Shown here in pieces: positions 1,656 to 40,547 of a stretch of 40,547 nt of DNA. The stretch's first letter is position 1. Every line of letters begins with the position of its first letter. Made by a program: the position numbers and the translations under genes. This stretch comes from a bacterium (lineage in GTDB: Bacteria > Myxococcota_A > UBA9160 > SZUA-336), in assembly GCA_024226335.1 (NCBI GenBank), contig JAAELY010000454.1, forward strand, positions 1 to 40,547. Direction: 5' to 3'. The notes below the pieces were generated by a model. It had not been told where the DNA came from, did not search any database, and worked only from the letters and a program-made list of their open reading frames with translations.

Positions 1656-1799
1656 TAGAACGCTTGAGGGCCCGATGTCATCGAGAGTTCCGAGGGTCTG
1701 GGGTTTTCAAGGTTTTCGAAGCGGCAGAAATGGCCGAAAATGACCGGGAATGGTCGGAAATTCAGGCATTACTCATGGAATATTGCCCTTGTGACGGCG

Positions 1800-1805
1800 T
1801 ATGAT
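1800..1805 (+). promoter_or_regulatory. candidate -10 box shared by the tandem regulators
   Basis: TATGAT lies in a short stretch (CGTATGATG, then ATTGAGA a few bases on) that is repeated upstream of the second regulator at 5257-5275. The distance from this box to the leader ORF start is similar in both copies (72 and 80 bases). No good -35 hexamer is visible at 17-bp spacing, so either an activator or another sigma factor would be needed. Confidence 0.3.
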
Positions 1806-1871
1806 GTTCCATTGAGATTGGAACTGGGGCTGGGGTTTCTTGGCGAGAGGCGGAGCCTGACCCAGCCGAAA

Positions 1872-1943
1872 ATGCGCCTTTCTGGACGGCCTGATCAGGA
1901 TCAGGGACAGGATCTTCTAGTGATCTGGTGCGAGTCGAGATGA
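1872..1943 (+). CDS. putative 23-residue leader peptide, stop overlaps regulator ATG
   Basis: A short ORF starts ATGCGCCTTTCTGGACGGCC, and its stop TGA (1941-1943) overlaps the ATG of the regulator (1940) as ATGA. The paralogous regulator at 5401 has an equivalent ORF beginning ATGCGCGTTTCTGGATGGCC that ends TGA overlapping TTG. The two differ in length by exactly two codons and both end in a Cys-X-Ser motif (CESR and CGSS). The SD is poor. Conservation of start, frame and stop/start overlap suggests translational coupling, but common descent of non-coding leader DNA is an alternative. Confidence 0.35.
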   Translation: MRLSGRPDQDQGQDLLVIWCESR

Positions 1944-4900
1944 TTTATCGATTCCTCGAATTCGAGCTTTCTGAGGAACGCTTCGAGGTTCGGAGGAACG
2001 GAGAGCCTGTGCTGACTCAGCGCAAGGCTTTTGACTTCGTGCGTTTTTTGCTCGTGAATCGCGATCGCGTAGTCACGCACGAAGAGTTGATCGACGCGCT
2101 CTGGGGAGGGGCGGCCCGGAGCCTGAGCACCATTCCGCAGTGCGCTGCCTCTGCTCGCCGGGCTCTCGGAGACAGTTCGACTCGACAGGCCGTGTTCCAG
2201 ACCGTCCGTGGGCGAGGCTATCGGTTCGTGGCAGAGGTCGAGGAGGCGGATTCGACGACACCTTCACTGCGGGTGATTCCCCGCGGTGAAGCCGGAGACG
2301 AAAGCGACTCCGCGCCATTCGTGGGCCGCGAGGAATTGATGTCCACTTTGTTTGCAACGCTGGGTGTGAGCCTGTCCGGCGAGGCGCGTGTTGTTTTTCT
2401 GTCTGGTGAGCCGGGCATCGGCAAGACACGCGCTGTAGAGGAACTCTCGCGCAAGGCGTTGGAGCACGGCGCCTCGGTGTTGACCGGGCGTTGCTATGAA
2501 GGGGAAGGCGCGCCTGCTTTCTGGCCCTGGATCCAGATAATTCGGGAATGGAATCGAAACAACGACTTCGCAGATCTCTCCGAGGACCTCAAGGACGAGG
2601 CGAGGTTCTTCTCGAAATGGCGTCCAGAGGTCGCGGGGAAGAACTCGAATAACTCGGCACAGGCGGGTGAGGGCGCGGAGCTGCGCTTCGGGCTTTTCGA
2701 CGCGGCCACCCGGGGGCTGAGAAAGTTCGCGGCGGACACCCCACTCGTCCTGGTGCTCGAAGACCTGCACTGGGCGGATCCCGCTTCTCTGGGTCTGTTG
2801 CGCTTCATCGCGGCGAGCCTGCGCCACGATCCGATACTCTTGGTGGGGACTTTTCGAGAAGACGAGCTGTATCGGACCTCGGAGTTGGCCCAGACCCTGG
2901 CCGGGTTGGCCCGGGAGCCGTCGTTCTCTTCCTTTTCGATGGAAGGTCTGGGACGTGAGGACGTAGGAGCGCTTCTCGAGCAGACCGTCAGTCGGGAGAT
3001 CCCACCGGACCTGGTCGATTCCGTGGCGACGATGACCGAAGGCAACCCGTTCTTCGTGGTCGAGCTCGCGCGACTTCTCAATGCCGACGGGGCAGGGGCC
3101 AATGTCAAAGACCTGCCTCGAAGTGAAGGTCTTGAGTTGCCGGCGAGCATCACCGCCACCATCGAACGCCGACTGGGAAAACTGACTGCCGCTTCGCGGC
3201 GGCTACTTGCGACAGCTTCGGTCATTGGGCGCGAGTTCACGCTGGCGCGTCTTTCGGAAGTCGCGGGTCCCGACTATCAACCCGTTCTCGAGCATCTCGA
3301 GGAGGCGGTCGAGGCACGAATCATCGAACCGATGCGTCGTGTCCCCGGAACATACCGCTTCAGTCACGCCCTGATCCGCGAGACTTTCTACCAGGGGATT
3401 ATGGGTCCCGCTCGGGCTCAGCTCCACCGGTCCGTCGCGGAGGCCCTGGAGCATCGCCATGGCGATTCGAACGACCCTCCCCTGGCCGCACTGGCCCACC
3501 ACTGGTACGCGGCCGTGGCAACGGGTGCAGTCGAGAAGGCCGCCGAGTACAGCAGGCTTGCGGGGCTGGCGTCGGCGGCGAGGCTCGCATTCGAGGAAGC
3601 GGCCTTCCATCTGAGGCGCGCACTCGAACTCGCGGATCTTCGACCGGTTTCCAACGAACGCGAGCACTGCGAAAACCTTCTCGACCTGGGGAAGGCTGAG
3701 TGGAATTCCGATAACCCTCGGCTCGCGCGCGCCACTTTCGCGCGAGCCGCAGCGCTTGCGCGCCAAATTGACTCTTCCCAGCTTTTCGCGAGAGCCGCGA
3801 TCGGCTACTACGGCTTCGAGCAGGGAATCTCCTCCGATGCGACGACGCGTGCGCTGCTCGAGGAGGCTGTCGGCTGGCTGGACGCGGATTCACCCGAACT
3901 TCGCGCGTGTGTGCTGGCCAAGCTCCAGCACATGACTCCCCACGCCGACCGAATGGAGACGCGACGCTCCATGAGCTTGGAGGCGCTCGATCTCGCCCGC
4001 AGCTGCCAGGATCCCCAGGCAATGCGCGACGCCTTTCGGGCTCGCGAAATGGCCACGGTTCCCACCGGGTTCCTCGATGAGCGACTCGAGTGGGAGGCGG
4101 AGTGTCGCGAGTGGGGCGAGAGACTCTCTGATCCGTGGCTTTCGTTGCTTGGAAACGACGTCGTCTCGTCACTTACCCAAGGGGACCGTGCGGGAGTGCT
4201 GCATTCGATGCAACAGAGTTCCCGTTTCGCAGCCGCCTCCGGAGACCGAATGAGTCGGTTCGTCTCCATTCTCCAGCAGTCCGGGTTCGCCATGATGGAA
4301 GGGCGCTTCGACGATCTGGGTCCGCTCATCGAATTGATTCCCGAGGCGGGCAAGAACTGCGTTTCCTGGTCCCAGAGTGCCTACTTCGGTTATCTCTTCG
4401 TCGAAACCCTCGAACTCGGAAAGTTCGATCAGCTGAAGCAGGATTGGTTGTCATTCTTCGACGACATCGTTTTGAGCTTCCCGAGTCGCGAGGTGATCGG
4501 TCACGCATCCATTGCCGTCATTCATTCACTGACTGATGATCATGCAGCGGCGATGAAAGAACTGGACCAGCTCCAGGATTGCTTCGGGATGGGGGCCGAG
4601 AACACGCAACATAATGAGAACTGGATCTTCGCGATGCGGTTGTTAGGCGACGTGATCGAGCGTTTGGGGACGAAGTCGCACGCCGGGATGCTTGCGCACG
4701 CCCTTGAACCGTCTGCCGAACAGGTCGTCTGTCATTCGTCGTTCCGCTGGGCAGGTGGCAGCGTCGCTTCCACGCTCGGTCTGCTCTCCTCCGTTCTCGG
4801 CAATTTCGAGGCTGGAATCGCCCAGTTTGAGGCCGGCCTGGCCAGGGAAACAGCGCTCGGAGCGAAACCCGCCATGTTGCGCAGTCAGGCTGGGTTGGCG

Positions 4901-5038
4901 CGCTTGCTGATGCGCCGTGGCACCAATAACGATCGATCAGATGCGCTCGCCTTGATGGATGAAGTCGTCACTGGGTGCGAACAGCTCGGGATCGATCCGC
5001 GCGAGAAGTACATCGCACCTTTCGAGCGTGTCCAGTGA
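1940..5038 (+). CDS. winged-helix STAND-type ATPase regulator, copy 1
   Basis: A large one-component regulator of 1032 residues from ATG 1940 (a GTG at 1928 would add four). Residues about 3-100 are an OmpR/PhoB-type winged helix with the recognition-helix and wing region ending QTVRGRGYRFVAEV. An ATPase module begins at the PFVGRE motif (about 126), with Walker A GEPGIGKT (about 156-163) and Walker B LVLVLEDLHWAD (about 269-280). The rest is helical repeat-like (TPR-like), as in MalT/LAL STAND regulators, but those use a LuxR-type HTH. Signal binding by the repeats and ATP-driven oligomerisation are expected from the family. A full-length paralogue follows in tandem, and an overlapping leader ORF precedes it. 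Targets unknown. Confidence 0.88.
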   Translation: MIYRFLEFELSEERFEVRRNGEPVLTQRKAFDFVRFLLVNRDRVVTHEELIDALWGGAARSLSTIPQCAASARRALGDSSTRQAVFQTVRGRGYRFVAEVEEADSTTPSLRVIPRGEAGDESDSAPFVGREELMSTLFATLGVSLSGEARVVFLSGEPGIGKTRAVEELSRKALEHGASVLTGRCYEGEGAPAFWPWIQIIREWNRNNDFADLSEDLKDEARFFSKWRPEVAGKNSNNSAQAGEGAELRFGLFDAATRGLRKFAADTPLVLVLEDLHWADPASLGLLRFIAASLRHDPILLVGTFREDELYRTSELAQTLAGLAREPSFSSFSMEGLGREDVGALLEQTVSREIPPDLVDSVATMTEGNPFFVVELARLLNADGAGANVKDLPRSEGLELPASITATIERRLGKLTAASRRLLATASVIGREFTLARLSEVAGPDYQPVLEHLEEAVEARIIEPMRRVPGTYRFSHALIRETFYQGIMGPARAQLHRSVAEALEHRHGDSNDPPLAALAHHWYAAVATGAVEKAAEYSRLAGLASAARLAFEEAAFHLRRALELADLRPVSNEREHCENLLDLGKAEWNSDNPRLARATFARAAALARQIDSSQLFARAAIGYYGFEQGISSDATTRALLEEAVGWLDADSPELRACVLAKLQHMTPHADRMETRRSMSLEALDLARSCQDPQAMRDAFRAREMATVPTGFLDERLEWEAECREWGERLSDPWLSLLGNDVVSSLTQGDRAGVLHSMQQSSRFAAASGDRMSRFVSILQQSGFAMMEGRFDDLGPLIELIPEAGKNCVSWSQSAYFGYLFVETLELGKFDQLKQDWLSFFDDIVLSFPSREVIGHASIAVIHSLTDDHAAAMKELDQLQDCFGMGAENTQHNENWIFAMRLLGDVIERLGTKSHAGMLAHALEPSAEQVVCHSSFRWAGGSVASTLGLLSSVLGNFEAGIAQFEAGLARETALGAKPAMLRSQAGLARLLMRRGTNNDRSDALALMDEVVTGCEQLGIDPREKYIAPFERVQ

Positions 5039-5338: not shown

Positions 5339-5404
5339 ATGCGCGTTTCTGGATGGCCGGGATTGAAAGCCCATTCTCGAACTATCGGCTGTGGTTCGAG
5401 TTGA
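5339..5404 (+). CDS. putative 21-residue leader peptide, stop overlaps regulator TTG
   Basis: The ORF starts at ATG 5339 directly after a run of nine G and ends at TGA 5402-5404, which overlaps the TTG at 5401 (TTGA). The start motif matches that of the leader ORF at 1872 in 18 of 20 bases, and the shared residues are MR, SG and P near the start and C-X-S near the end. A longer reading of the regulator from ATG 5353 would run through this same motif in another frame. Confidence 0.35.
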   Translation: MRVSGWPGLKAHSRTIGCGSS

Positions 5405-8400
5405 TCTTTCGTTTCCTCGACTTCGAGCTCGACGAAGAACGCTTCGAGATCAGAAGAGGTCAAAGACCAGTTCACACGCAGAGAAGGGCCTTTGATTTTC
5501 TGCGCTATCTGCTGTTGAACAGGGATCGCGTGGTCAGCCACGATGAACTCATCGAGACTCTCTGGGACGGAGCTGCTCGGAGCGAGAGCAACATCCCCCA
5601 ATGTGTGGCTTCCATCCGTCGATCCATGGGTGAGCAAGTCGACCGCGATGCCGTGATTCAGACGGTACGGGGTCGGGGCTATCGTTTTGTGGCGGAGATC
5701 GAGGAGATCGCACCGGCCAGAAACTCTGCGGACGCACCTCCGCGCGTGGATCCAATACAGGCAGACTCCAGCTCATCGCCCTTCGTCGGACGCAGGGAGG
5801 TGATGGCGACACTGCGCTCTGCACTAGGAGAGAGTCTGTCCGGTGAGACTCGTGTCGTCATGCTCGTCGGGGAGCCGGGAATCGGCAAGACACGCGCGGT
5901 CGAAGAGCTGGCCCGTGAAGCCGCCGACCGCGGCGCAACGGTCTTGACCGGACGATGCTACAAGGGCGAAGGTGCGCCGGCCTTTTGGCCGTGGCTTCAG
6001 ATCGCCGATGAATGGGTAGGGCTCCACACGACCTCGATGTTACCCGTGGAATTCAAGGCCTTGGCGAAGGCTCGTAGGCGCTGGTTTTCCGAAAAATCTC
6101 CCCGTACCCCGGCGATAGGCATGGAAGCGGTGGAGGCGCGCTTCCAGCTCTTTGACGCCGGGGCTCGCGCCCTGCAGCGTGGTGCTCAGTATGCGCCGCT
6201 CGTCCTCGTGCTCGAAGATATTCACTGGGCCGACCCGGCTTCCCTCGGATTGCTTCGCTTTGCTGCTGAACAGATACATCACGTTCCCCTGCTCATGCTT
6301 GGGACCTATCGTGGAAATGAACTCGACAGCACGCCCGAGCTTTCCCTGACCCTGGGTGAACTATCGCGCGAGTCCACGTTCCGGCGCATCCCCGTCGAAG
6401 GTCTCGGGGCAGAGCACGTAAATGAACTTCTGTCGCAGATCGTCAGCAAGGACATCCCCACGGCATTGTTTGAATCGGTGGCTTCGATGACCGAAGGCAA
6501 TCCTTTCTTTGTCATCGAACTCGCGCGGATCCTCGATGCGGCGGAAAGTGCTCCGGAGTCCGGTGACCCCGGCGGAAGAGGATCGATCGGACTACCGGCG
6601 AGTGTGTCCGATGCAATTGCGTTTCGACTCGGCCGGTTGACGGACGGATCACGACAACTCCTGACACTGGCCGCGGTGATCGGCCGGGAGTTTGGAGTGA
6701 CGCTGTTGTCGGAGGTTGCGGGACAGGAATGCGAGCTGATTCTGCAACTTCTGGAAGAGGCGGCCCTCCTCGGGATCGTCGAGCCCGTTCGCAACGCACC
6801 GGATACATATCGATTCAATCACGCCCTGACTCGCGAGGCGTTGTACCAGAGGGTTGAGGCGACGAGCAGAGCTCCACTCCACGGATCCGTCGCGAAGACG
6901 TTGGAGCGTCTTCACGCCAATTCGATGGCTCCTCCGCTAGCGGCGCTGGCGTATCACTGGTACGAGGCGTTAGAGACCGGTGAACTCGAGAAGGCGGCCG
7001 AGTACTGCAGGCGGGCAGGAGTGTGGGCGTTGTCAAAGCTCGCGTTCGAGGAGGCCGCCCACCAGCTGAAGCGGGCGCTCGAGCTTGCGGACCTTCGGCC
7101 TTCGTCTGGGGAGTCTGAGAGTTGCGAGCTTCTGCTTCACCTCGGGCAAGCCCAGTGGAGTGTCGGCGAACGCGCGGAGGCCCAGGCCACGTATGCCAAG
7201 GTGGTGGCCCTCGCTCGTCGAATCGGTTCTGCTGAGTATCTCGCGAGAGCCGCGATCGGCAATTTCGGGTTCGAACAAGGCCACACTGAGGACGCGACGG
7301 CCCGCGCGCTGCTCGAGGAGGCGGCTGCAGTCCTGGATGACGACCTACCGGCGCTTCGCGCGCAGGTGCTCACCAAGCTCGTATTCATGGCTCCATACGC
7401 GGACCTGATGGAAACGCGACAGTCCATGAGCCTGGAGGCACTCGAACTCGCCCGAAACTGCGGGGATGTCAGGGCCCTTCGCGAGGCATTCCACGCTCGG
7501 CTCTGGGCCACGCCCACGCCCATGTTCCTCGAGCAGAGACGCGTGTGGACAAAAGAGTGTCTCGCCTGGGGCGAACAACTCGATGACCCGTGGTTGTCGT
7601 GGCTCGGCACCGACTCGGTCTTGGCTTTCTCGCTGGGAGACCGAGCTGAGCTAGTCCGTGCGATGCAGGAGAGTTCCCACTTTGCAGGTCTGTCCGGCCA
7701 TCGTTCAGGGCAGTTCGTCATCCTCCTCGAGCAAACGGGCTTTGCCCTGTTGGAGGGACGCTTCGACGACTCGACCCGCTTCATCGGGCAGATCCTCGAG
7801 GCGGGTAAGGACTGTACTTCTTGGGCTCCAGAATCCTACTACGCCTATCTCTTCCTCGAGGGCTGGCAACGAGGCATACTCCATCAGCCGGGCCAGGACT
7901 GGCCGACGTTTTTCGAAGGCCTGATCGCGGGACTTCCTGGACGTGAAACGATCGGCCATGCCGCCATCGCGTTGCTCAAGGCTTTTGGCGAAGACCGAAA
8001 GGGCGCGTTGGCAGAACTCGATTGGCTCACCGGGTCAATCGGGCCCGAGTTTCGCGAAGTGCCGCAGAATGAAAACTGGCTCAGTGCGATGTATCTGATG
8101 TCAGAGGTGATCGAGCGTCTCGATGCACAGCCCTACGCCGAGCTTCTCGCCCCCGCTCTCGAGCCTTTTGTCGACCAGATGGTATGCCATCCCTCGCACC
8201 GTCTGCCCGGAGGCAGTATCGCAACCATGCTTGGCCTGCTTTCATCCGTTCTCGGGGATTTCGAAGCAGGGGAGGCCTATTTCGAAGAAGGTTATGCGAG
8301 GGAGAAAGCGTTCGGAGCAAGACCCGTCATGTTGCGCAGTCGGGCGGGACTAGCGTGTCTGCTCCTGCGCCGGGGTGCGAGGGGTGACCGATCTCGCGCA

Positions 8401-8499
8401 GACGCCTTGATGGAAGAAGTCTTGAGTGGTTGTGAAGACCTGGGCATCCATCCTGACGTGAAGTACGTCGAGCCTTTCGAGCGCCTTTTGCAGCGATAG
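5401..8499 (+). CDS. winged-helix STAND-type ATPase regulator, copy 2
   Basis: This paralogue of the preceding gene is similar along its whole length. From TTG 5401 it is 1032 residues, exactly the length of copy 1 from ATG 1940, and TTG 5401 aligns with that ATG; an ATG at 5353 would add 16 residues with no counterpart in copy 1. The PhoB-type winged helix spans about residues 3-100 (ends QTVRGRGYRFVAEI), followed by PFVGRR, Walker A GEPGIGKT, Walker B LVLVLEDIHWAD and a long helical C-terminal half. The near-identical recognition region (NRDRVV, IPQC, TVRGRGYRFVAE) suggests overlapping DNA targets, while the C-terminal sensing half differs more. The gene ends at a strong hairpin facing the nirK operon. 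Confidence 0.88.
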   Translation: MIFRFLDFELDEERFEIRRGQRPVHTQRRAFDFLRYLLLNRDRVVSHDELIETLWDGAARSESNIPQCVASIRRSMGEQVDRDAVIQTVRGRGYRFVAEIEEIAPARNSADAPPRVDPIQADSSSSPFVGRREVMATLRSALGESLSGETRVVMLVGEPGIGKTRAVEELAREAADRGATVLTGRCYKGEGAPAFWPWLQIADEWVGLHTTSMLPVEFKALAKARRRWFSEKSPRTPAIGMEAVEARFQLFDAGARALQRGAQYAPLVLVLEDIHWADPASLGLLRFAAEQIHHVPLLMLGTYRGNELDSTPELSLTLGELSRESTFRRIPVEGLGAEHVNELLSQIVSKDIPTALFESVASMTEGNPFFVIELARILDAAESAPESGDPGGRGSIGLPASVSDAIAFRLGRLTDGSRQLLTLAAVIGREFGVTLLSEVAGQECELILQLLEEAALLGIVEPVRNAPDTYRFNHALTREALYQRVEATSRAPLHGSVAKTLERLHANSMAPPLAALAYHWYEALETGELEKAAEYCRRAGVWALSKLAFEEAAHQLKRALELADLRPSSGESESCELLLHLGQAQWSVGERAEAQATYAKVVALARRIGSAEYLARAAIGNFGFEQGHTEDATARALLEEAAAVLDDDLPALRAQVLTKLVFMAPYADLMETRQSMSLEALELARNCGDVRALREAFHARLWATPTPMFLEQRRVWTKECLAWGEQLDDPWLSWLGTDSVLAFSLGDRAELVRAMQESSHFAGLSGHRSGQFVILLEQTGFALLEGRFDDSTRFIGQILEAGKDCTSWAPESYYAYLFLEGWQRGILHQPGQDWPTFFEGLIAGLPGRETIGHAAIALLKAFGEDRKGALAELDWLTGSIGPEFREVPQNENWLSAMYLMSEVIERLDAQPYAELLAPALEPFVDQMVCHPSHRLPGGSIATMLGLLSSVLGDFEAGEAYFEEGYAREKAFGARPVMLRSRAGLACLLLRRGARGDRSRADALMEEVLSGCEDLGIHPDVKYVEPFERLLQR

Positions 8500-17448: not shown

Positions 17449-18576
17449 TCAGTCGTCCTCTGTCTTTGGAGTTTCCTCGGCGGGAGCCAGCGTGGCGTAG
17501 AAAGTACTCCCGCCCGAGTCACCCGACTCTACCCAGATCTGGCCTCCGTGGTGTTCCACTACCTTGCGGCAGGTCGAGAGGCCGAGGCCGCTGCCTTCGA
17601 ACATCGTCTGTGAATTGAGCCGCTCGAAGGTTCCGAAGATCCGCTCGCGATCCGCTCCTGGAATGCCGATCCCATTGTCCGCGACTGCTATATGCCAGCG
17701 ATCCCCGATCCGTTCAGCTGAAATCTCGATCGACGGGTGCTCTTCCGTCCGGAACTTGAGTGCGTTGGCGATCAGATTCTGCAATAGCTGGATCAGCAAC
17801 GTCTCGTCACCCCAGACGCTCGGAAGATCCGCGATCTTGATGCTGGCTTCCGTTTCCGCAATTTCGGTTGCCAGGTTCTCGAGCGCCCGAGAGGCGATCC
17901 CGGCCAGTTCGAGCGCGCGCATCGGCTCGCCCGATTTTCCCACCCGGGCGAACTGCAGCAGGTCTTCGACCAGATTCGTGAGCCGACAGCTATTGCGCTG
18001 GATGGTCTCGATGTACGTGGTCACGTCTTCAGAGACGTTCAGATCGGCGAGTTCTTTCTCGAGGAACCCCGAGAATGTCGCGATGCGGCGAAGTGGGGCC
18101 TTGATATCGTGGGCCGCAACCGACGCGAATTCATTTACTTCCCGGTTCTTCTTTTCCAACGCGCCGTTTGCTCGATCCAGTTCGCGCCGGCTCTCGTATA
18201 GTTCGAGAAAAACTCGCACCTTCGAGAGCAGTATGTCGGGGTTCAACGGCTTGAATAGAAGGTCAACCGCACCTGCGGAATAGGCGGACAGCACGATGCT
18301 GTCGCTCTTGTTCAGCGCCGTCAGAAAGACGATGGGCGTGACCTGAGTCTTCGAGTGGTTCCTCAGCAAGCTTGCGACTTCATACCCGTCCATCTCCGGC
18401 ATCTGGATATCGAGCAGGATGAGTGCGAACTCGTTGTTGATCGTCAACTCGAGTGCTCGCTGGCCGGATGTGGCCTTGACCAGTTCGGCATCGCACTCGT
18501 CGAGCAGGGCTTCGATCGCGATCAGATTGGCCGGTTGGTCATCGACGATCAGAATACGGGGTCGTGGATCGCTCAT
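17449..18576 (-). CDS. receiver-histidine kinase (REC-HisKA-HATPase)
   Basis: A cytoplasmic 375-residue protein with an N-terminal receiver (D12-D13, phosphoacceptor D56 in LLDIQMPEMDG, T86, K109 in FKP), a short coiled coil (130-150), HisKA with H156 (VAAHDIKAPLRRI) and a HATPase (N-box LIANALKF at 268-275, G1 DNGIGIP at 300-306, G2 GSGLGLS at 328-334). In related clusters such a protein closes an operon of hybrid kinase, CheR and CheB, and accepts signals from the first kinase through its receiver. Its ATG overlaps the stop of the upstream kinase-CheR gene (ATGA). All catalytic residues are intact, unlike those of its neighbour. The phosphorelay partner is unknown. Confidence 0.93.
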   Translation of the reverse strand: MSDPRPRILIVDDQPANLIAIEALLDECDAELVKATSGQRALELTINNEFALILLDIQMPEMDGYEVASLLRNHSKTQVTPIVFLTALNKSDSIVLSAYSAGAVDLLFKPLNPDILLSKVRVFLELYESRRELDRANGALEKKNREVNEFASVAAHDIKAPLRRIATFSGFLEKELADLNVSEDVTTYIETIQRNSCRLTNLVEDLLQFARVGKSGEPMRALELAGIASRALENLATEIAETEASIKIADLPSVWGDETLLIQLLQNLIANALKFRTEEHPSIEISAERIGDRWHIAVADNGIGIPGADRERIFGTFERLNSQTMFEGSGLGLSTCRKVVEHHGGQIWVESGDSGGSTFYATLAPAEETPKTEDD

Positions 18577-21500
18577 TCGTCACCTCGTCTGCGGTAGATC
18601 TGTTGATCCTTTGAAAAATCGTCGAAGTCCTTGCGACAGCTGGAGAAGCAGAGGGCTTCCCGAGAGCCCAGGCAGAGGAAGCCGCCCGGTTGGAGGCTGT
18701 CCTTGAACAGTTCGATGGCTCGATGCTGTAGCTCCGGGTCGAAGTAGATCAGCACGTTCCGGCAGATCACCACGTCTACCTCGGTGAAGACGTCATCATT
18801 GGCCAGGCTATGGTGAGAGAAGACGATGTTCTTCTTCAACGCGGAGTTCACGATGGCCGCGTCGTAACGCGCCAAATAGTAGTCGGAGAACACACCGGTC
18901 CCACCCGATTGCTGGTAGTTCGAAGTGGAATCTCTGATTCGCGTGATCGGGAAGATTCCTTCGCGTGCTTCCTGCAGTGCAGCTGCGTCGATATCGGTCG
19001 CGTAGAGGAGCGACCGGTCGTACAGGCCCGTCTCTTGTAGAAGAATGGCCATGGAGTAGACCTCTTCCCCGGTGGCGCAACCGGCGTGCCAGAACTTCAG
19101 ATGCGAGCGATCCTGAAGCGAAGGCAGAAGCCGTTCCCGGGTCGCCCGGAAGTAATCCGGATCGCGGAACATCTCGGTAACATTGATGGTGAGGGCACCC
19201 AGTAGCGTATTGAACAGCGGGCGGTTGGCGAGGATCTCCTTTCGCAACTCTTCGATGCTCCCGAGTCCGGACGAATTGAGAGTACGCTGGACCTGACGCT
19301 TGAGCGATGAACTCCGGTACTGGCGGAAGTCGTAGTTGTAGGTCTGGAGAACCGTTTCGAGAAGACCGAGGAGTGCCCGGTCTTCTTTCGTGGCCTTGGC
19401 CGTTATGGCGATGATCGGAAGCTGGTTGAAGTTCTCCCGGGCTCGAGTGCGTCGCATCGCCTCGTAGCCGTCCATTTCCGGCATCATGATGTCCATCAGT
19501 ACCAGGTCGATTCCTGGCTCCCGCTCCAGAGATTCGAATGCATCCAGGCCGTTTGCGGCCATCACGATTTCGGCACCGTACTGCTCGAGGGTACTGCTGA
19601 TCGCGAACAGATTGCGCATGTCATCATCTACGAGCAGCAAGGTCTTCCCTGCGAATGTGGTGTCCTCGTCGTGGATGCTTTCGATCTTTCTCTGTTGCTC
19701 CTCTGGAAGCTGCCGATTCACGCGATGCAGGAACATCGCGGTCAGGTCCAGCAGTTTCTGCTGGGCTGAGGCGTCCTTGTGGATGATCTGGGTGGCGGGA
19801 TGGTCGAGACGTGCGAGCTCATCGCGACTGAGTTCCCTTCCGAGCAGCGCGGCGATGCCGCTGCGAGCCGACGGATCGTCATCGACCAGGAGCAACTTCC
19901 TGAAAGGTCTGTCGAGCTGGCCTTCGATCCGTTCGAAAACCTCACCGAGCTGGATTGGATCGAATGCCCCCCTCAGGATCGTTACCTGCTCTGACTCTGG
20001 TATGCCACTACCACCCCTTTCAGTGGCGATGATATGGACCGGAATGTCTCGAGTCGCGCGGTCTCCGTGGAGATGTTCGAGGAATACCTGTTCATCGAGA
20101 TTCGATTCAGCTGCATCCAATAGGATTGCGCTCGGGAGCTGGCGTCTTGCCATCTCGAGTCCGGACCCTCCGGTGTCTGCAAATAGACACTCGAAGCCCC
20201 GCTGACCTGCGAACTCGCGCAGGGTTTCTCCCAGTATGCGGTTCTCGCCAATCACCAGAACGGTTGGTGCATCTGGGCGAAGAATCACGCTGGTTTCCCG
20301 AGCCGGATCGACGGACGTACTCGGCTCCGCCGAAGTTGCGATTGACTCGGGCAGGATGAGCGTGAAGCAGCCTCCGACTCCCTCTTCGCTCTCGAGATGC
20401 AACTTCCCACCTAGCAACCGGGCAATCTGGAGGCTGATGGAAAGGCCGAACCCCGTTCCTCCGTACTCGCGCCCAGTTGTCCCGCCCGCCTGGTTGAACG
20501 CATCGAAGATGGTCCCGCGTTGGGCATCTGGAATTCCTGAACCCGTATCGGTGACCGAGATCGCGATCTTGGAGGATCCGTTGGCGGAGCTTCTGTCCCA
20601 CTCGCCACGCTCTTCCGGTCGGCCGATGCTCAAGCGGATGCTGCCGCGCTTGGTGAACTTGAGGGCGTTGGAAAGCAGGTTCTTGGTCACCTGGCCGACG
20701 CGTTGTGCGTCCGTCGAGATGTGACTCGGCAAGCCATCTTCGATTTCGAGTTCCAGGGCAAGCCCGTTTCTTTCGGCTCCCGCCTTGAAGCGGCGTTCCG
20801 CCTCCACGAGGATCTCGGCCAGTTCGACCCGCTCCGTGTTCACCTTCATCTTTCCGGCTTCGATCTCTCGTTTCTGCAGCTCCAGGGATCGGGTCTTCTC
20901 CTCCAGTTGTTCGTTGCTCGACTGCAATTCCTCGTTCTGTGCCTGTAGTGATTCTTCCGAAGCCTGGAGCATCTGAGTCTGGGATTGCAGCTCTTCGGAC
21001 TGGGCCTGACTCTCTTCAAGCAGTTCTTGCAAACGAATCCGAGACTGCATTGCTTCGATGCTGACCGCGATGCTCTCCTCTGTCCGCTTGAGGAACTCGA
21101 TGCAGCGATCCTCGAAGGGTTCGAACGCTCCCAGCTCGACCACTCCAGCGACCACACTGTCGCGAACGAACGGCCAGACGATGATATTGCGCGGTGACGA
21201 ATCGCCCAGCCCTGAGCGGATCGTGAGAGAGTCATCGGGCGCGTCGGTGAGAAGGATGTGCTGCTTTTCCAGCGCGGCCTGGCCGACCAGACCCTGGCCG
21301 TATTCGAACCTGTTGGCGAGGTTCTTGCGCGTCTGAAAGGCGTAACTTCCAACTAGTTGGAGCTGGCGTTGTCCGCTGGCGACGTAGAGCGCACCTACCT
21401 GGGCATTCAGATATTTGGCCAGATAGGTGACCGTATCTCGCGCTAGTTCGGTGATGTGTTTGTCGCCGCGCAATTTCTCGCTGAGTTCTGTCTGGCCTAG

Positions 21501-22178
21501 CTTGAACCAGTTCTGTCTGTCCTGGATATTCGCGCCCTCGCGCAGATCGGACACCATATCGGCGAAACTGCGACTCAGTCCTCCGAGTTCATCTCTGCGC
21601 GCACTCTCGATCTCCTGCTCGAGTTTGCCGCTGGCTATCAGGCCGGCCGCGTCCGAGAGCTGTTCGATGGGTCGAACGATTCGGCGGGTAACCAGGGTCG
21701 CGATTGCCAGGACGAGCAGCGCAGTGAACGCAAGAGTACTCAGAATCAGAATCTTCAACTCGTTGGCCGGGGCGAGGATCGTCTTTTCCTGGACCTCCGA
21801 GATCACGGCCCAGCGCGTGCCGGCAATCTCCAGATTCAGATGAATGCCCAGGACCCTTTCACCGTTCGGTCCGGGATAGACGGATGCGGCCTTAGCCCCG
21901 TCGCGGACCGCCGTTCTATCTGCCTCCTGCGCTGTTAGCCAGAGCCGAGTCTGTTCAGTGTCAATGCGGTGGTTCAGGTATGCCCCCGAGCCAGGTTCTT
22001 GCGGGCGGGCGATCCGTTTCGGGCTATCGGTCGGGTCTGACTCGGGCATCGGGGAGCGAAGGCTCAGACCCCACTCGGGAGTGAATCCGACCAGATAACT
22101 TGCGGCTCCCAAGTCCATGCCGCCCGTCTCCATCACGCCCTCGCCGATCTTGTCGGTGTTGTTCTGGACTGCGACCAC
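18573..22178 (-). CDS. rearranged sensor kinase-CheR fusion, C-terminal part after frameshift
   Basis: The ORF has 1201 residues and continues the protein begun at 22876 after a one-base frameshift. Order: rest of dCache sensor (1-135), TM helix (141-164), HAMP (165-220), GAF (about 240-380), coiled coil (380-438), HATPase (N-box LLSNALKFT at 501-509, G1 DTGSGIP at 544-550, G2 GTGFGLS at 574-580), degenerate REC1 (637-755, acidic pair replaced by GEN, LLD kept, Lys lost), remnant REC2 (760-815), REC3 (846-934, phosphoacceptor D896 in LMDIMMPEMDG) and CheR methyltransferase (935-1195, HAGCATGEE, CRNVLIYFDP). No HisKA H-box exists: the coiled coil runs straight into IEAGKMKVN, the segment that normally follows HisKA. 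REC2 lacks its phosphoacceptor region and REC3 lacks the K-P end. ATPase and CheR motifs are intact. Confidence 0.88.
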   Translation of the reverse strand: MVAVQNNTDKIGEGVMETGGMDLGAASYLVGFTPEWGLSLRSPMPESDPTDSPKRIARPQEPGSGAYLNHRIDTEQTRLWLTAQEADRTAVRDGAKAASVYPGPNGERVLGIHLNLEIAGTRWAVISEVQEKTILAPANELKILILSTLAFTALLVLAIATLVTRRIVRPIEQLSDAAGLIASGKLEQEIESARRDELGGLSRSFADMVSDLREGANIQDRQNWFKLGQTELSEKLRGDKHITELARDTVTYLAKYLNAQVGALYVASGQRQLQLVGSYAFQTRKNLANRFEYGQGLVGQAALEKQHILLTDAPDDSLTIRSGLGDSSPRNIIVWPFVRDSVVAGVVELGAFEPFEDRCIEFLKRTEESIAVSIEAMQSRIRLQELLEESQAQSEELQSQTQMLQASEESLQAQNEELQSSNEQLEEKTRSLELQKREIEAGKMKVNTERVELAEILVEAERRFKAGAERNGLALELEIEDGLPSHISTDAQRVGQVTKNLLSNALKFTKRGSIRLSIGRPEERGEWDRSSANGSSKIAISVTDTGSGIPDAQRGTIFDAFNQAGGTTGREYGGTGFGLSISLQIARLLGGKLHLESEEGVGGCFTLILPESIATSAEPSTSVDPARETSVILRPDAPTVLVIGENRILGETLREFAGQRGFECLFADTGGSGLEMARRQLPSAILLDAAESNLDEQVFLEHLHGDRATRDIPVHIIATERGGSGIPESEQVTILRGAFDPIQLGEVFERIEGQLDRPFRKLLLVDDDPSARSGIAALLGRELSRDELARLDHPATQIIHKDASAQQKLLDLTAMFLHRVNRQLPEEQQRKIESIHDEDTTFAGKTLLLVDDDMRNLFAISSTLEQYGAEIVMAANGLDAFESLEREPGIDLVLMDIMMPEMDGYEAMRRTRARENFNQLPIIAITAKATKEDRALLGLLETVLQTYNYDFRQYRSSSLKRQVQRTLNSSGLGSIEELRKEILANRPLFNTLLGALTINVTEMFRDPDYFRATRERLLPSLQDRSHLKFWHAGCATGEEVYSMAILLQETGLYDRSLLYATDIDAAALQEAREGIFPITRIRDSTSNYQQSGGTGVFSDYYLARYDAAIVNSALKKNIVFSHHSLANDDVFTEVDVVICRNVLIYFDPELQHRAIELFKDSLQPGGFLCLGSREALCFSSCRKDFDDFSKDQQIYRRRGDE

Positions 22179-22876
22179 ACCCTTTTTCCACCGTCTTTGT
22201 CGGCAATGATGGAGACCAGGAAACCGGCTGCCATATCGTTCGACGGGCTGTAGTGCTCCAGGTCGGAAGATGTGAGTCTTCCGGTTTCCAGCGTCTCGCG
22301 AACGGCGTGCCCGAAATGCGTATCCGCGTAGGGTCCGTCGAAGAGGTTGGTGCCCAGATCATCTTCCTCGGTGATCGAGAACAGGATGTTGCCTTCGAAG
22401 TCGATCAGGAAGACGTCGTGGTAGTCGTACGTCCGCTTGAACGACCTGAGGTCATCGCCGCCCGGGCCCGCGATCTGGGTCCAGCGGAGGCTGCCGACGA
22501 AGTCACCGGCGTCCTGCCCGCTCTTTTCGAACCCTTCTCGAAGTCTGGCCAGGAAACGGCCGTTGTCGACGCTCATCGCCAGCGTGCCCACGTCGATCAT
22601 CCGGTACTCGAACCAGTTGCTGATGAAGGTGGATTTCTGTTGCACGCTGCTGGTGAGTTCGCGGTAGGCCGCGGCGTTCAGAGTTTCGGTTGCTCTGGAA
22701 TAGCTGAGCAGGCTGACCGCGATGAGCGGGGCCAGCGAGACGCCGAGGAACCACGACAGCAGTTTCTGCTTGAGGCTCGTGCGCGGGCCGATAGAACCCG
22801 TCCGAGTTGAACCTGCAGCCAGGTGGCCGCGCTCCGTTGCGTCGGAATCGGACTCCATGATCGACTTCGTGCTCAT
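22133..22876 (-). CDS. sensor kinase N-terminal part (TM + dCache) before frameshift
   Basis: This 247-residue reading from ATG 22876 encodes the N-terminus of the kinase-CheR protein: a hydrophilic leader, a TM helix (LLSWFLGVSLAPLIAVSLLSY) and most of a periplasmic dCache-type sensor (YHDVFLIDFEGNILFS, AGFLVSIIADKDGG). At the A5 run on the minus strand (T5 at 22183-22187) the reading frame leaves the conserved path. Adding one A gives GGKKGVVAVQN and joins smoothly to the 18573-22178 ORF. The remaining residues after the shift are out of frame. An upstream start at 23143 is unlikely because it would run into hisH. Either a sequencing error or a true single-base deletion. Confidence 0.75.
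   Translation of the reverse strand: MSTKSIMESDSDATERGHLAAGSTRTGSIGPRTSLKQKLLSWFLGVSLAPLIAVSLLSYSRATETLNAAAYRELTSSVQQKSTFISNWFEYRMIDVGTLAMSVDNGRFLARLREGFEKSGQDAGDFVGSLRWTQIAGPGGDDLRSFKRTYDYHDVFLIDFEGNILFSITEEDDLGTNLFDGPYADTHFGHAVRETLETGRLTSSDLEHYSPSNDMAAGFLVSIIADKDGGKRVWSQSRTTPTRSARA
22183..22187 (-). other. frameshift site in the sensor kinase gene
   Basis: The run of five A on the minus strand lies in GGTGGAAAAAGGGTG. Sensor-domain sequence is in one frame before it and in the -1 frame after it. The heptamer A-AAA-AGG is a weak slippery site, since only the first tRNA could re-pair fully, so programmed shifting is less likely than an indel or base-calling error. Confidence 0.7.
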
Positions 22877-23132
22877 CCCCACCCCGGGCTGCAACGGTCG
22901 GTCGTAGGTCCTCGATCTTTGGCTGGAAACACCACTGGAAGCGCTTATCGTGAAGATGCGCAGCACCCTTGAACCGGTTCCTGCACTCTGGCTTCCTCGA
23001 GAGCACCGCTCGCGGGGCGCGGTTGGCGCCCCGAGTTCCTCTTCTTCTGCTTCGGTGCCATCGCGTACACGAGAGTTCGGGAGTGATTCTGTTTGGAGTG
23101 ATGCTAGCCTGCTCGTCCACGGGGAGGAGTTC

Positions 23133-23753
23133 GTGATCACCATCGTCGACTACGGTGCGGGCAATCTGCGCAGCGTGGAACGGGCTTGCCGGGCCGTAAA
23201 CATGGATTCCCGTTTCAGCCGCGATCCGAAGGAAGTTCTTTCGGCCGAGCGCATTCTATTTCCCGGTGTGGGCGCGGCCGCCAGCGCGATGCAGGCGCTG
23301 CACGAGCGTGGCCTGGGTGAGGCACTCGAGCAGGCGGTCGCCAGGGGAGTTCCAACCCTGGGGATCTGCATCGGTTGTCAGATCGTGCTCGATCACTCGG
23401 AGGAGGGCGATACTCCTGCGCTGGGTTTGATCCCGGGCCGTACGGTGCGCTTTCGGATCGACGACCCCGAGCTGAAGATTCCCCATATGGGCTGGAACGA
23501 AGTGCGCGTCGCGCGCCCGCACCCGCTGCTCGAGGGCATCGAAACCGCCGACGAGTTCTACTTCGTGCACTCCTACTACCCCAGGCCTGACGACGACGCC
23601 CATGTGTTCGCCACGGCCTCCCATGGCGGGGAGTTCGCCTGTGCAGTGGGCAGGGACAATCTATTCGCCACGCAGTTTCATCCCGAGAAGAGCGGGCGTC
23701 TGGGCCTGGCGATGCTGGAACGCTTCGCGCGCTGGGACGGTCAGTCGTGCTGA
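23133..23753 (+). CDS. hisH: imidazole glycerol phosphate synthase, glutaminase subunit HisH
   Basis: A class I glutamine amidotransferase of 206 residues that releases ammonia from glutamine for HisF. The catalytic triad is C79 (GICIGCQ, where the usual motif is GICLGMQ), H183 and E185 (FHPEKSG). The PGVGA oxyanion-strand motif is at 44-48. GTG 23133 follows GGGGAGGAG with good spacing; the frame is open further upstream only because it is antisense to the kinase gene. HisF follows with a 7-base overlap, as expected for subunits of one heterodimer. No other his genes are in the window. Histidine and AICAR biosynthesis is the expected role. Confidence 0.93.
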
Positions 23754-38888: not shown

Positions 38889-38913
38889 GCGCGTAGGTCA
38901 GTCGTTTACGCGC
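38889..38913. terminator. hairpin between converging CaiB and MaoC genes
   Basis: GCGCGTA and TACGCGC pair over 7 bp with an 11-base loop at the junction of the two converging genes, overlapping the end of the MaoC gene. No T-run follows, so termination activity is uncertain. Confidence 0.3.
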
Positions 38914-39737
38914 AGGACTCCCTGATCGATCACGACCTGGCCGTCCTGGTCCTTCGTCTGGAACTGGCACTCGTTGCCATCGACCCAGATCGACACGGTC
39001 AGAGCGTCGCCCGGCATGACCGGCTTGGAGAAGCGCGCGTGCATCGAGCGGAAGCGCTTCGGATCGCTGCCGCACACGGAGTGCAGGAGGGCTCGCCCCG
39101 TGACCCCGTAACTGCACAGTCCGTGCAGGATCGGTCGATCGAAGCCGCCGATTTTCGCGAACGAGGGATCGGAGTGCAGCGGGTTGCGGTCTCCGGAGAG
39201 TCGATACAGAAGGGCCTGGTCGACGCGTGTTTCGTAGCGGACTTCGTGATCGGCCTTGCGCGAAGGAAGTTCCCAGGTGGGGGAGGGGCCGCGCTCACCT
39301 CCGAATCCGCCTTCGCCGCGCAGGAAGAGGTTCATCTCGGTCTTGAACAGCGGCTTGCCAGTGGCCACGTTGAGCGATTCGGAGACCAGGTCGACGACCG
39401 CGCCCTTGCCCTTGTCCCAGATACCCGCGATCGAACCGGTGCTTTCGATCTCGCCGTCCGCCGGGATCTCGTCGTAGAGTTCAATGCCCTGGCCTCCGTG
39501 GAGCAGGAGGGCCGGGTTGAAGTCACCGATCTTGCTGAACGGTACGCCGCCGCCGCCGAGGACCACACCCATGGTCGGCAGCACGCGCTGCGGAGTGTCC
39601 TTGGTGTTCTCGGTCGTGAATTGAAGCTCATCGGTTCCCGCTCCGACGCCTAGCGCGTAGAGCAGAGCGTCCTTCGAAGTCCAGGAGCGGCGTTGTGCTT
39701 CGCCTTTTTGTCCGACTGCATCGGGATTGACGGCCAT
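38898..39737 (-). CDS. MaoC-type (R)-enoyl-CoA hydratase, double hot-dog
   Basis: A 279-residue protein with two hot-dog domains, as in peroxisomal multifunctional hydratase 2. The N-terminal domain (about 1-145) lacks the hydratase motif, and the C-terminal one contains D183 and H188 (SGDRNPLHSDPSFAKIGGFDRPILHG), the catalytic pair for syn hydration of (2E)-enoyl-CoA to the (R)-3-hydroxy form. ATG 39737 has AAGGAA at good spacing. A PaaI-like hot-dog gene lies 34 bp upstream on the same strand. It fits beta-oxidation of bulky or steroid-like acids together with the CaiB gene, but that is inference. Confidence 0.93.
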   Translation of the reverse strand: MAVNPDAVGQKGEAQRRSWTSKDALLYALGVGAGTDELQFTTENTKDTPQRVLPTMGVVLGGGGVPFSKIGDFNPALLLHGGQGIELYDEIPADGEIESTGSIAGIWDKGKGAVVDLVSESLNVATGKPLFKTEMNLFLRGEGGFGGERGPSPTWELPSRKADHEVRYETRVDQALLYRLSGDRNPLHSDPSFAKIGGFDRPILHGLCSYGVTGRALLHSVCGSDPKRFRSMHARFSKPVMPGDALTVSIWVDGNECQFQTKDQDGQVVIDQGVLRVND

Positions 39738-39771
39738 GAGGGATTCCTTTCGCGTTTCTTCGTTGATTCAA

Positions 39772-40248
39772 TCAGGTCAGGATGCGGTACAGAACCGTAC
39801 CACGAGCGGTGATGTGTCCGTCGGTCGCGCTCGCGACCTCGACATCCGACCAGAAGATCTCGTTGTCTCGCTGTGTGCAGCGACCGAACGCCACGAGATC
39901 GTCCCTGGGCGCGGGGGTGAAGTTCTCGACTTGAAGAGAGGGAGTCGACGCCTTGAATCGACCGGGTCCGGACTCGGCCCAGGCAGCCATGGCGCCGGCC
40001 GTGTCCAGGAGCGCGAGTACGGCACCTTCGTGCACACCGCCCGACAGGTCTGCATTGTCTTCGCGATAGGGCATCACCAGGCGCGACGTGCCGCCGGTCA
40101 TGTGCTCGACGGCGATTCCGCGGTTGCCGATGAACGGCACCTGGCCGATGAACGGTCCCATGGAACCCGGTTCGGCCAGGCCGTGGTCGCCTTTCGAAAC
40201 GGGTGTTTCTATAGCGGTCGCACCCTTGCGCCCGCGCACCGTGGTCAT
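39772..40248 (-). CDS. PaaI-type hot-dog thioesterase
   Basis: A 158-residue single hot-dog protein from ATG 40248. The thioesterase motif GGVHEGAVLALLDTAGAMAAW (G-G-x-x-x-G with the catalytic acid D at the centre of the long helix) and LQVENFTPAPRDDLVAFGR mark the PaaI group that hydrolyses acyl- or aryl-CoA. The reading frame is open to 40326, but the upstream part contains the 24-bp repeat at 40256-40279 and is not conserved, so the later ATG is used; no good SD precedes it. Located upstream of the MaoC gene in the same direction. The acyl group is unknown. Confidence 0.85.
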   Translation of the reverse strand: MTTVRGRKGATAIETPVSKGDHGLAEPGSMGPFIGQVPFIGNRGIAVEHMTGGTSRLVMPYREDNADLSGGVHEGAVLALLDTAGAMAAWAESGPGRFKASTPSLQVENFTPAPRDDLVAFGRCTQRDNEIFWSDVEVASATDGHITARGTVLYRILT

Positions 40249-40255
40249 GATGTTT

Positions 40256-40279
40256 GAGTTGTGGTCCGAAGAGTGTGCC
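40256..40279 (-). repeat. 24-bp element, inverted copy of 105-128
   Basis: The minus strand here starts GGCACACTCTTCGGACCACA and matches the plus-strand element at 105-128 with one mismatch over 24 bases. It sits 8 bp upstream of the thioesterase start and 52 bp downstream of the partial gene at the right edge. No further copy was noticed in the window. Confidence 0.6.
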
Positions 40280-40331
40280 TTTCGAGTCCGCAGGTCTTCT
40301 CGGAGCAGGCCATCTGCCCCATTCACCAGCC

Positions 40332-40547
40332 TCAGTACGCGTAAGAGAGTTCGTGACTCCGCCCACCCGGAAGTCTGCGGGTCGGAATGCGCCGCTCGTA
40401 GCAGCTCTTCAACCAGACCGGAAGGTCCATCCGAGAAGCGAACAAGCGCTGACTCAGCAACGCTCGAACCGAGTAGCGCCGCTGCGTGATCCCCAGGTAC
40501 TGCGCCGGAGTCTCATCCCGGCGACGCTCCGAACGAGACTTCACGTA
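40332..40547 (-). CDS. C-terminal fragment of an unidentified gene, possibly a transposase
   Basis: The minus strand is open from the right edge to a stop at 40332, giving about 71 residues: YVKSRSERRRDETPAQYLGI, then a QRRYSVRALLSQRLF segment, and ending HELSYAY. The basic SRSERRRDETPAQYLG stretch followed by a short helix recalls the C-terminal end of some DDE transposases (R-x-TPA-x-x-LG), but the fragment is too short to prove it. The 5' part is outside the window. Confidence 0.4.
   Translation of the reverse strand, partial: YVKSRSERRRDETPAQYLGITQRRYSVRALLSQRLFASRMDLPVWLKSCYERRIPTRRLPGGRSHELSYAY

Follow-up and report, generated by a model that had tools for sequence, protein, structure and literature searches.

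An open hybrid-kinase reading frame lacking HisKA and fused in frame to CheR

Results

Organization of the locus

The window analyzed here is the whole stretch of 40,547 nucleotides. P0001 is an ORF of 1201 codons on its reverse strand (18573-22178), and the features of this ORF and of the flanking P0002 and P0003 are listed in Table 1. Pfam profiles identified HAMP, GAF, HATPase_c, Response_reg and CheR domains in P0001, and no HisKA match was obtained at E ≤ 1. The protein contains ...LEEKTRSLELQKREIEAGKMKVNTERVELAEILVEAERRFK..., in which the coiled coil runs into the ATPase with no HisKA between them. The CheR part was matched by CheR_N (residues 939-984) and CheR (residues 999-1177); the CheR_N match is below its cut-off, yet it spans positions 6-51 of the 53 in the profile. 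The ATG of P0003 overlaps the stop codon of P0001. Two tandem large regulators on the forward strand of the window (1928-5038 and 5353-8499) both carry Trans_reg_C followed by AAA_16, and probably represent a duplication.

Table 1. Features of the P0001 locus, in window coordinates and ordered along the coding strand.
Feature	Position	Strand	P0001 residues	Basis and remarks
P0002 ORF: first transmembrane helix and first half of the sensor	22133-23143	-		Translation; frame differs from P0001; homologues cross 22187 with a change of frame
Frame break in CCCTTTTTCC	22180-22189	-		Homology and codon usage; A5 on the coding strand at 22183-22187
HAMP (PF00672)	21537-21695	-	162-214	Pfam, E 3e-11
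GAF (PF13185)	21054-21458	-	241-375	Pfam; normally conserved, identity z +0.7
Coiled coil	20871-21044	-	379-436	Sequence; alignment with the coil of homologues
Junction 1 (REIEAGKM), HisKA missing	20847-20870	-		Alignment, tblastn and H-box count; about 92 conserved columns missing
HATPase_c	20346-20711	-	490-611	Pfam, E 4e-23
REC1, degenerate, Lys lost	19884-20261	-	640-765	Near-invariant columns, identity z
REC2 remnant	19689-19880	-	767-830	Alignment with homologues
Junction 2 (ALLGRELS), REC2 columns missing	19827-19850 (approximate)	-		Alignment and tblastn; about 61 columns missing, including the phosphoacceptor Asp
REC3, with Asp; cut short ahead of the conserved Lys	19377-19637	-	848-934	Pfam Response_reg, positions 2-85 of 111
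Junction 3 (KEDRALLG), gene fusion; loss from the REC3 end through stop and spacer into the CheR start	19365-19388	-		CheR separate in 37/37 relatives; CheR N-termini
CheR methyltransferase	18576-19364	-	939-1201	Pfam, E 2e-39; matches CheR structures
P0003: intact REC-HisKA-HATPase kinase	17449-18576	-		Translation, Pfam, conservation

Loss of the HisKA domain

The first-pass annotation had claimed that the sensor kinase lost its HisKA domain in frame at 20855-20867 and that its ATPase N, G1 and G2 boxes were intact. Both statements were borne out: junction 1 encloses these positions, the reading frame continues across it, and the three boxes are readable. When the whole genome was searched for HisKA, the only matches on the same contig lay in neighbouring kinases (17941-18135 and 1153-1344), and none lay in P0001.

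Homologues were sought in one genome per species across 84,980 species, and 80 loci from many bacterial phyla were obtained. An H-box was found in 78 of 79 homologous kinase ORFs, about 55 residues ahead of the point at which the P0001 ATPase alignment starts; in the 79th, from Niastella yeongjuensis, it sits in the ORF just upstream, split off by one in-frame stop. Counting this upstream ORF, HisKA sequence occupies the position of junction 1 in 79/79, and the supposition that homologues might all lack the domain was not borne out (0/79 lack it). Alignment with 40 homologues showed that 92 well-occupied columns are absent at junction 1, a block that extends from the last part of the coil through the H-box and the two HisKA helices, up to LINDILDLSK; because these 40 were chosen for the presence of an H-box, the unbiased statement on HisKA is the one based on the 79 ORFs. 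This gap and the one in REC2 (junction 2) were recovered by tblastn independently of the alignment, at window positions 20867 and 19840. Judged from these comparisons, chance does not explain the absence of HisKA from P0001.

The Niastella yeongjuensis locus comes from an isolate genome. One in-frame TAA (at about 6087-6089 of the locus) lies inside HisKA, between LIN and ILDLSK, and the two halves are otherwise intact. The locus was rejected as a HisKA-less homologue, its H-box being present upstream of the single stop. Within 91 genomes of the class, no convincing match across junction 1 and no other HisKA-less member were found. Matches that start ahead of junction 1 were not accepted as HisKA-less relatives, since the coil can line up with the last part of a HisKA helix. 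The relative G034 is a case in point, its kinase protein having a normal HisKA.

Receivers and fusion to CheR

Two in-frame deletions beyond the loss of HisKA (junctions 2 and 3) were missed in the first-pass annotation, as was the frame break at 22183-22187. In the alignment with 40 homologues, 61 REC2 columns are absent between ALL and GRELS, including the phosphoacceptor motif LDLgLPDM. REC1 has lost its conserved Lys (K737G), and REC3 breaks off at ITAKATKEDR; the residues that follow, ALLGLLETVLQTYNYDFRQY, align to the first CheR helix. No receiver of P0001 has both the phosphoacceptor Asp and the conserved Lys, since REC1 is without the Lys, the core of REC2 is deleted and REC3 ends ahead of its Lys. 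Phosphotransfer within the P0001 protein is predicted to be impossible, given that there is no phosphoacceptor His, that REC1 lacks its Lys, that REC2 lacks its core and that REC3 lacks its last part.

CheR is a separate ORF directly 3' of the kinase in 37/37 relatives and is fused to it in none. In G034, which provides the closest CheR match, the gene order is kinase, CheR and a REC-HisKA-ATPase gene like P0003. From the separate CheR of the relatives and the gene order in G034, it follows that P0001 lacks everything from the end of REC3 into the start of CheR, including the stop codon and the spacer.

Frame break in the sensor

Homologous proteins cross window position 22187 with a change of frame, and a codon-usage model placed the frame switch at about 22184, within CCCTTTTTCC. 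Programmed -1 frameshifting at GGAAAAAGGG was considered and rejected: no perfect in-frame slippery heptamer is present, and the downstream RNA folds no better than shuffled sequences (z -0.38). Were the break at 22183-22187 genuine, the protein would also have lost membrane sensing and the gene would be near to a pseudogene. On the reverse strand at 38898-40547 of the window, codon usage switches frame near 39765, with a stop overshoot of 138 bases; either a second frame break or genes that overlap in an unusual way could account for this.

Conservation of the individual domains

P0001 was compared with 40 relatives at near-invariant positions, that is, columns at least 90% identical among the other members of the family. 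In GAF, which offers few such columns, 0/5 were changed. Changes were found at 4/49 positions in the ATPase (2/40 relatives as bad), 9/18 in REC1 (1/40), 4/11 in the REC2 remnant (3/40), 3/33 in REC3 (2/40) and 2/65 in CheR (17/40). The mean identity to the 24 relatives holding both genes was also expressed as a z-score against the mutual comparison of those relatives, which are not independent of one another; REC1 scored -5.0 and the ATPase -2.8, the REC2 remnant stood at -1.5, REC3 and CheR both at -1.6, and GAF at +0.7. CheR is thereby somewhat diverged too, at rank 3 of 25. In P0003, HisKA and the ATPase are normal, and REC carries four conservative changes in 28 positions. Thus, the changes and the z-scores are uneven, with the phosphorelay part of P0001 diverged and CheR and P0003 near the family norm. 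REC1 is atypical in a paralogue of the same genome as well (contig C361), so part of its drift may predate the loss of HisKA.

No stop codon interrupts the 1201 codons of P0001; about 2.4 would be expected at a neutral divergence of 0.02 per site, with about 3.3% of random substitutions creating a stop. The three deletions are all in frame, which would happen by chance in 1 of 27 cases if the frame were random.

Related kinases and state of the assembly

Two further hybrid-kinase genes in this genome are broken. On the reverse strand of contig C361 (about 1700-3300), a paralogous ammonium-transporter-like/HAMP/HisKA/ATPase/REC gene has two frame breaks and an apparent join of REC1 to REC3. On the reverse strand of contig C52 (about 17,900-18,500), a HisKA with the altered H-box SHENRTPRN runs straight into a receiver, the ATPase is missing, and a frame break follows. 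The lineage may be losing such kinases, or the assembly may be handling them badly.

The rate of frame switches in codon usage was 5.4 per 100 kb here and 5.1 in one relative, G003, on which the comparison rests, two relatives of higher GC content having been left out as unsuited to the model. Genome-wide sequencing error as the sole cause was rejected on the equality of these rates. Among aligned regions, 7 clusters of frame breaks were counted in 116 kb here, against 0 in 90 kb of relatives; 2 of the 7 turned out to be adjacent genes. The apparent frame breaks in contig C336 are in fact two adjacent genes. Raw counts of deletion clusters (22 here, 11 in relatives) were set aside, as many of them reflect no more than normal variation in domain architecture. 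Displaced pieces of HisKA or REC2 were sought throughout the assembly, for HisKA with the corresponding segment of G034, its first residues slightly altered; only the C361 paralogue carries the HisKA subfamily of P0001, and no REC2 core was found.

Discussion

Origin of P0001

P0001 is probably a decaying hybrid kinase rather than a kinase of a new type, although we hold this with modest confidence; its frame would have been kept for the sake of CheR and a coupled gene further 3'. The ancestor would have been a widespread hybrid kinase of the order sensor-HAMP-GAF-coil-HisKA-ATPase-REC-REC-REC, with a separate CheR gene next to it. In the P0001 lineage, the phosphorelay half would have decayed through three deletions, probably between short similar stretches, of which one took out HisKA, one the REC2 core and one the end of REC3 with the start of CheR; REC1 would have drifted. 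The frame would have stayed open because the chain then ended in CheR, with a stop codon overlapped by the next kinase gene. An open frame with lost chemistry would be expected where the 3' end, meaning CheR and the coupling of P0003, depends on that frame; this step, the order of the events and slippage as the mechanism of deletion are what we infer. Deletions in the same phase, between stretches coding for the same residues (I-E-A at junction 1), would make three in-frame losses less surprising. The remaining product would be no more than a scaffold of GAF and coiled coil that includes an ATP-binding-like domain and bears a CheR methyltransferase; it would neither autophosphorylate nor phosphorylate its own receiver.

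Decay is favoured by the HisKA present in 79/79 homologues, the losses of 92 and 61 columns, the unfused CheR of 37/37 relatives, the uneven distribution of near-invariant changes and of identity z-scores, the normal P0003, the lack of a stop, and the broken kinases of C361 and C52. Counted against it are the normal GAF and HAMP, the readable ATPase boxes, the divergence of CheR itself, the atypical REC1 of C361, and the frame, which stays open through three deletions as it also would in a functional protein. Such a protein would have been rewired: either its sensor, coil and ATP-binding domain would serve as a pseudokinase controlling the fused CheR, or its ATPase would phosphorylate a partner in trans, in the manner of CheA4 and CheA3. 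Overall we consider it rather unlikely. The chance of 1 in 27 for three in-frame deletions, the HAMP, GAF, ATPase and CheR domains still recognizable by Pfam, the normal conservation of CheR, and the precedents of the CheA3/CheA4 split kinase (PMC3591291) and the ChrS pseudokinase (PMC9491836) are in its favour. It has to contend with a sensor split by a frame break, an ATPase with more near-invariant changes than in 38/40 relatives, and the lack of any other member convincingly crossing junction 1 in 91 genomes of the class; no adjoining gene encodes a candidate partner with a phosphoacceptor and no ATPase, P0003 being a complete kinase. The first-pass annotation had proposed that the ATPase might phosphorylate another protein, and this fares poorly given the broken receivers, the split sensor, the unusual substitution load of the ATPase and the ATPase that P0003 has of its own. 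Its suggestion of signalling through CheR is helped somewhat by the fact that no other catalytic domain of P0001 is normally conserved, but CheR is part of the chain only through a deletion that fused two genes. A functional fusion of a pseudokinase to CheR is possible, as a minority reading. One form of it, a one-protein device that arose from a hybrid kinase by in-frame removal of every phosphotransfer site and in which GAF sensor, coil and a non-phosphotransferring ATP-binding domain directly control the attached CheR, appears improbable. If the fusion works, a sensor kinase would have been converted into a sensor-linked methyltransferase.

An artefact, in which the organism carries the missing segments and sequencing or assembly dropped them, is unlikely. 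The genome is a draft of 556 contigs (97.4% complete, 3.7% contamination), the homopolymer frame break and the three losses are crowded into one gene, and the clusters of frame breaks exceed those of the relatives, all of which would suit an artefact. Most neighbouring genes with a Pfam match, however, show complete or near-complete domains, the rate of frame switches resembles that of G003, and the missing HisKA and REC2 segments do not lie elsewhere in the assembly; moreover, REC1 and the ATPase carry accumulated substitutions, which are not the product of an assembler. If P0001 is decaying, it offers a modest example of a multi-domain kinase dismantled by in-frame deletions, its last domain and the next gene preserved, and a warning against taking an open frame with a readable ATPase as evidence of a working kinase.

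Comparison with known systems

DivL of Caulobacter keeps the DHp fold, with a Tyr replacing the His. P0001 is akin to such pseudokinases, whose catalysis is lost or repurposed and whose role is regulatory; unlike DivL, it has lost the whole HisKA domain and not the His alone. Evolved ChrS of Corynebacterium glutamicum is a pseudokinase frameshifted in its ATPase domain (PMC9491836), whereas the ATPase of P0001 remains. In the split kinase of Rhodobacter sphaeroides, CheA4 is paired with CheA3, a protein that contains the phosphoacceptor but no ATPase (PMC3591291). Like CheA4, P0001 bears an ATPase and no phosphoacceptor domain of its own; unlike CheA4, it has no CheA3-type partner encoded adjacent, its neighbour P0003 being a complete kinase. 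Split kinases and pseudokinases demonstrate that part of a kinase can stay useful, so some function of the P0001 remnant is possible, and the split-kinase mode would need a partner, which was not found next door. In the part of the literature covered, no description of a HisKA-less GAF hybrid kinase fused to CheR was found.

The CheR part resembles CheR methyltransferases (PDB 5ftw, 1af7) in its nearly complete CheR_N and SAM-binding domains and in the conservation of family positions, and differs from them in being fused in frame behind a kinase remnant, without a start of its own. As to the kinase part, the HATPase_c domain with its N, G1 and G2 boxes is that of a hybrid histidine kinase, while the phosphoacceptor domain and a complete receiver are absent. 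P0001 shares with the (HAMP)-GAF-coil-HisKA-HATPase-REC-REC-REC kinases the domain order, the recognizable remaining domains and the neighbourhood (kinase and CheR, and in G034 also the REC-HisKA-HATPase gene); it departs from them in the loss of HisKA, the REC2 core and the REC3 end, the fused CheR, the REC1 without Lys and the split sensor. On its homology over GAF, ATPase, REC3 and CheR and on its gene neighbourhood, though not on a separate CheR gene, P0001 belongs by descent to the GAF hybrid-kinase/CheR operon family, with loci in Alcanivorax, Pseudacidovorax, Paenibacillus, Bacteroidota, a Calditrichota MAG and the relative G034.
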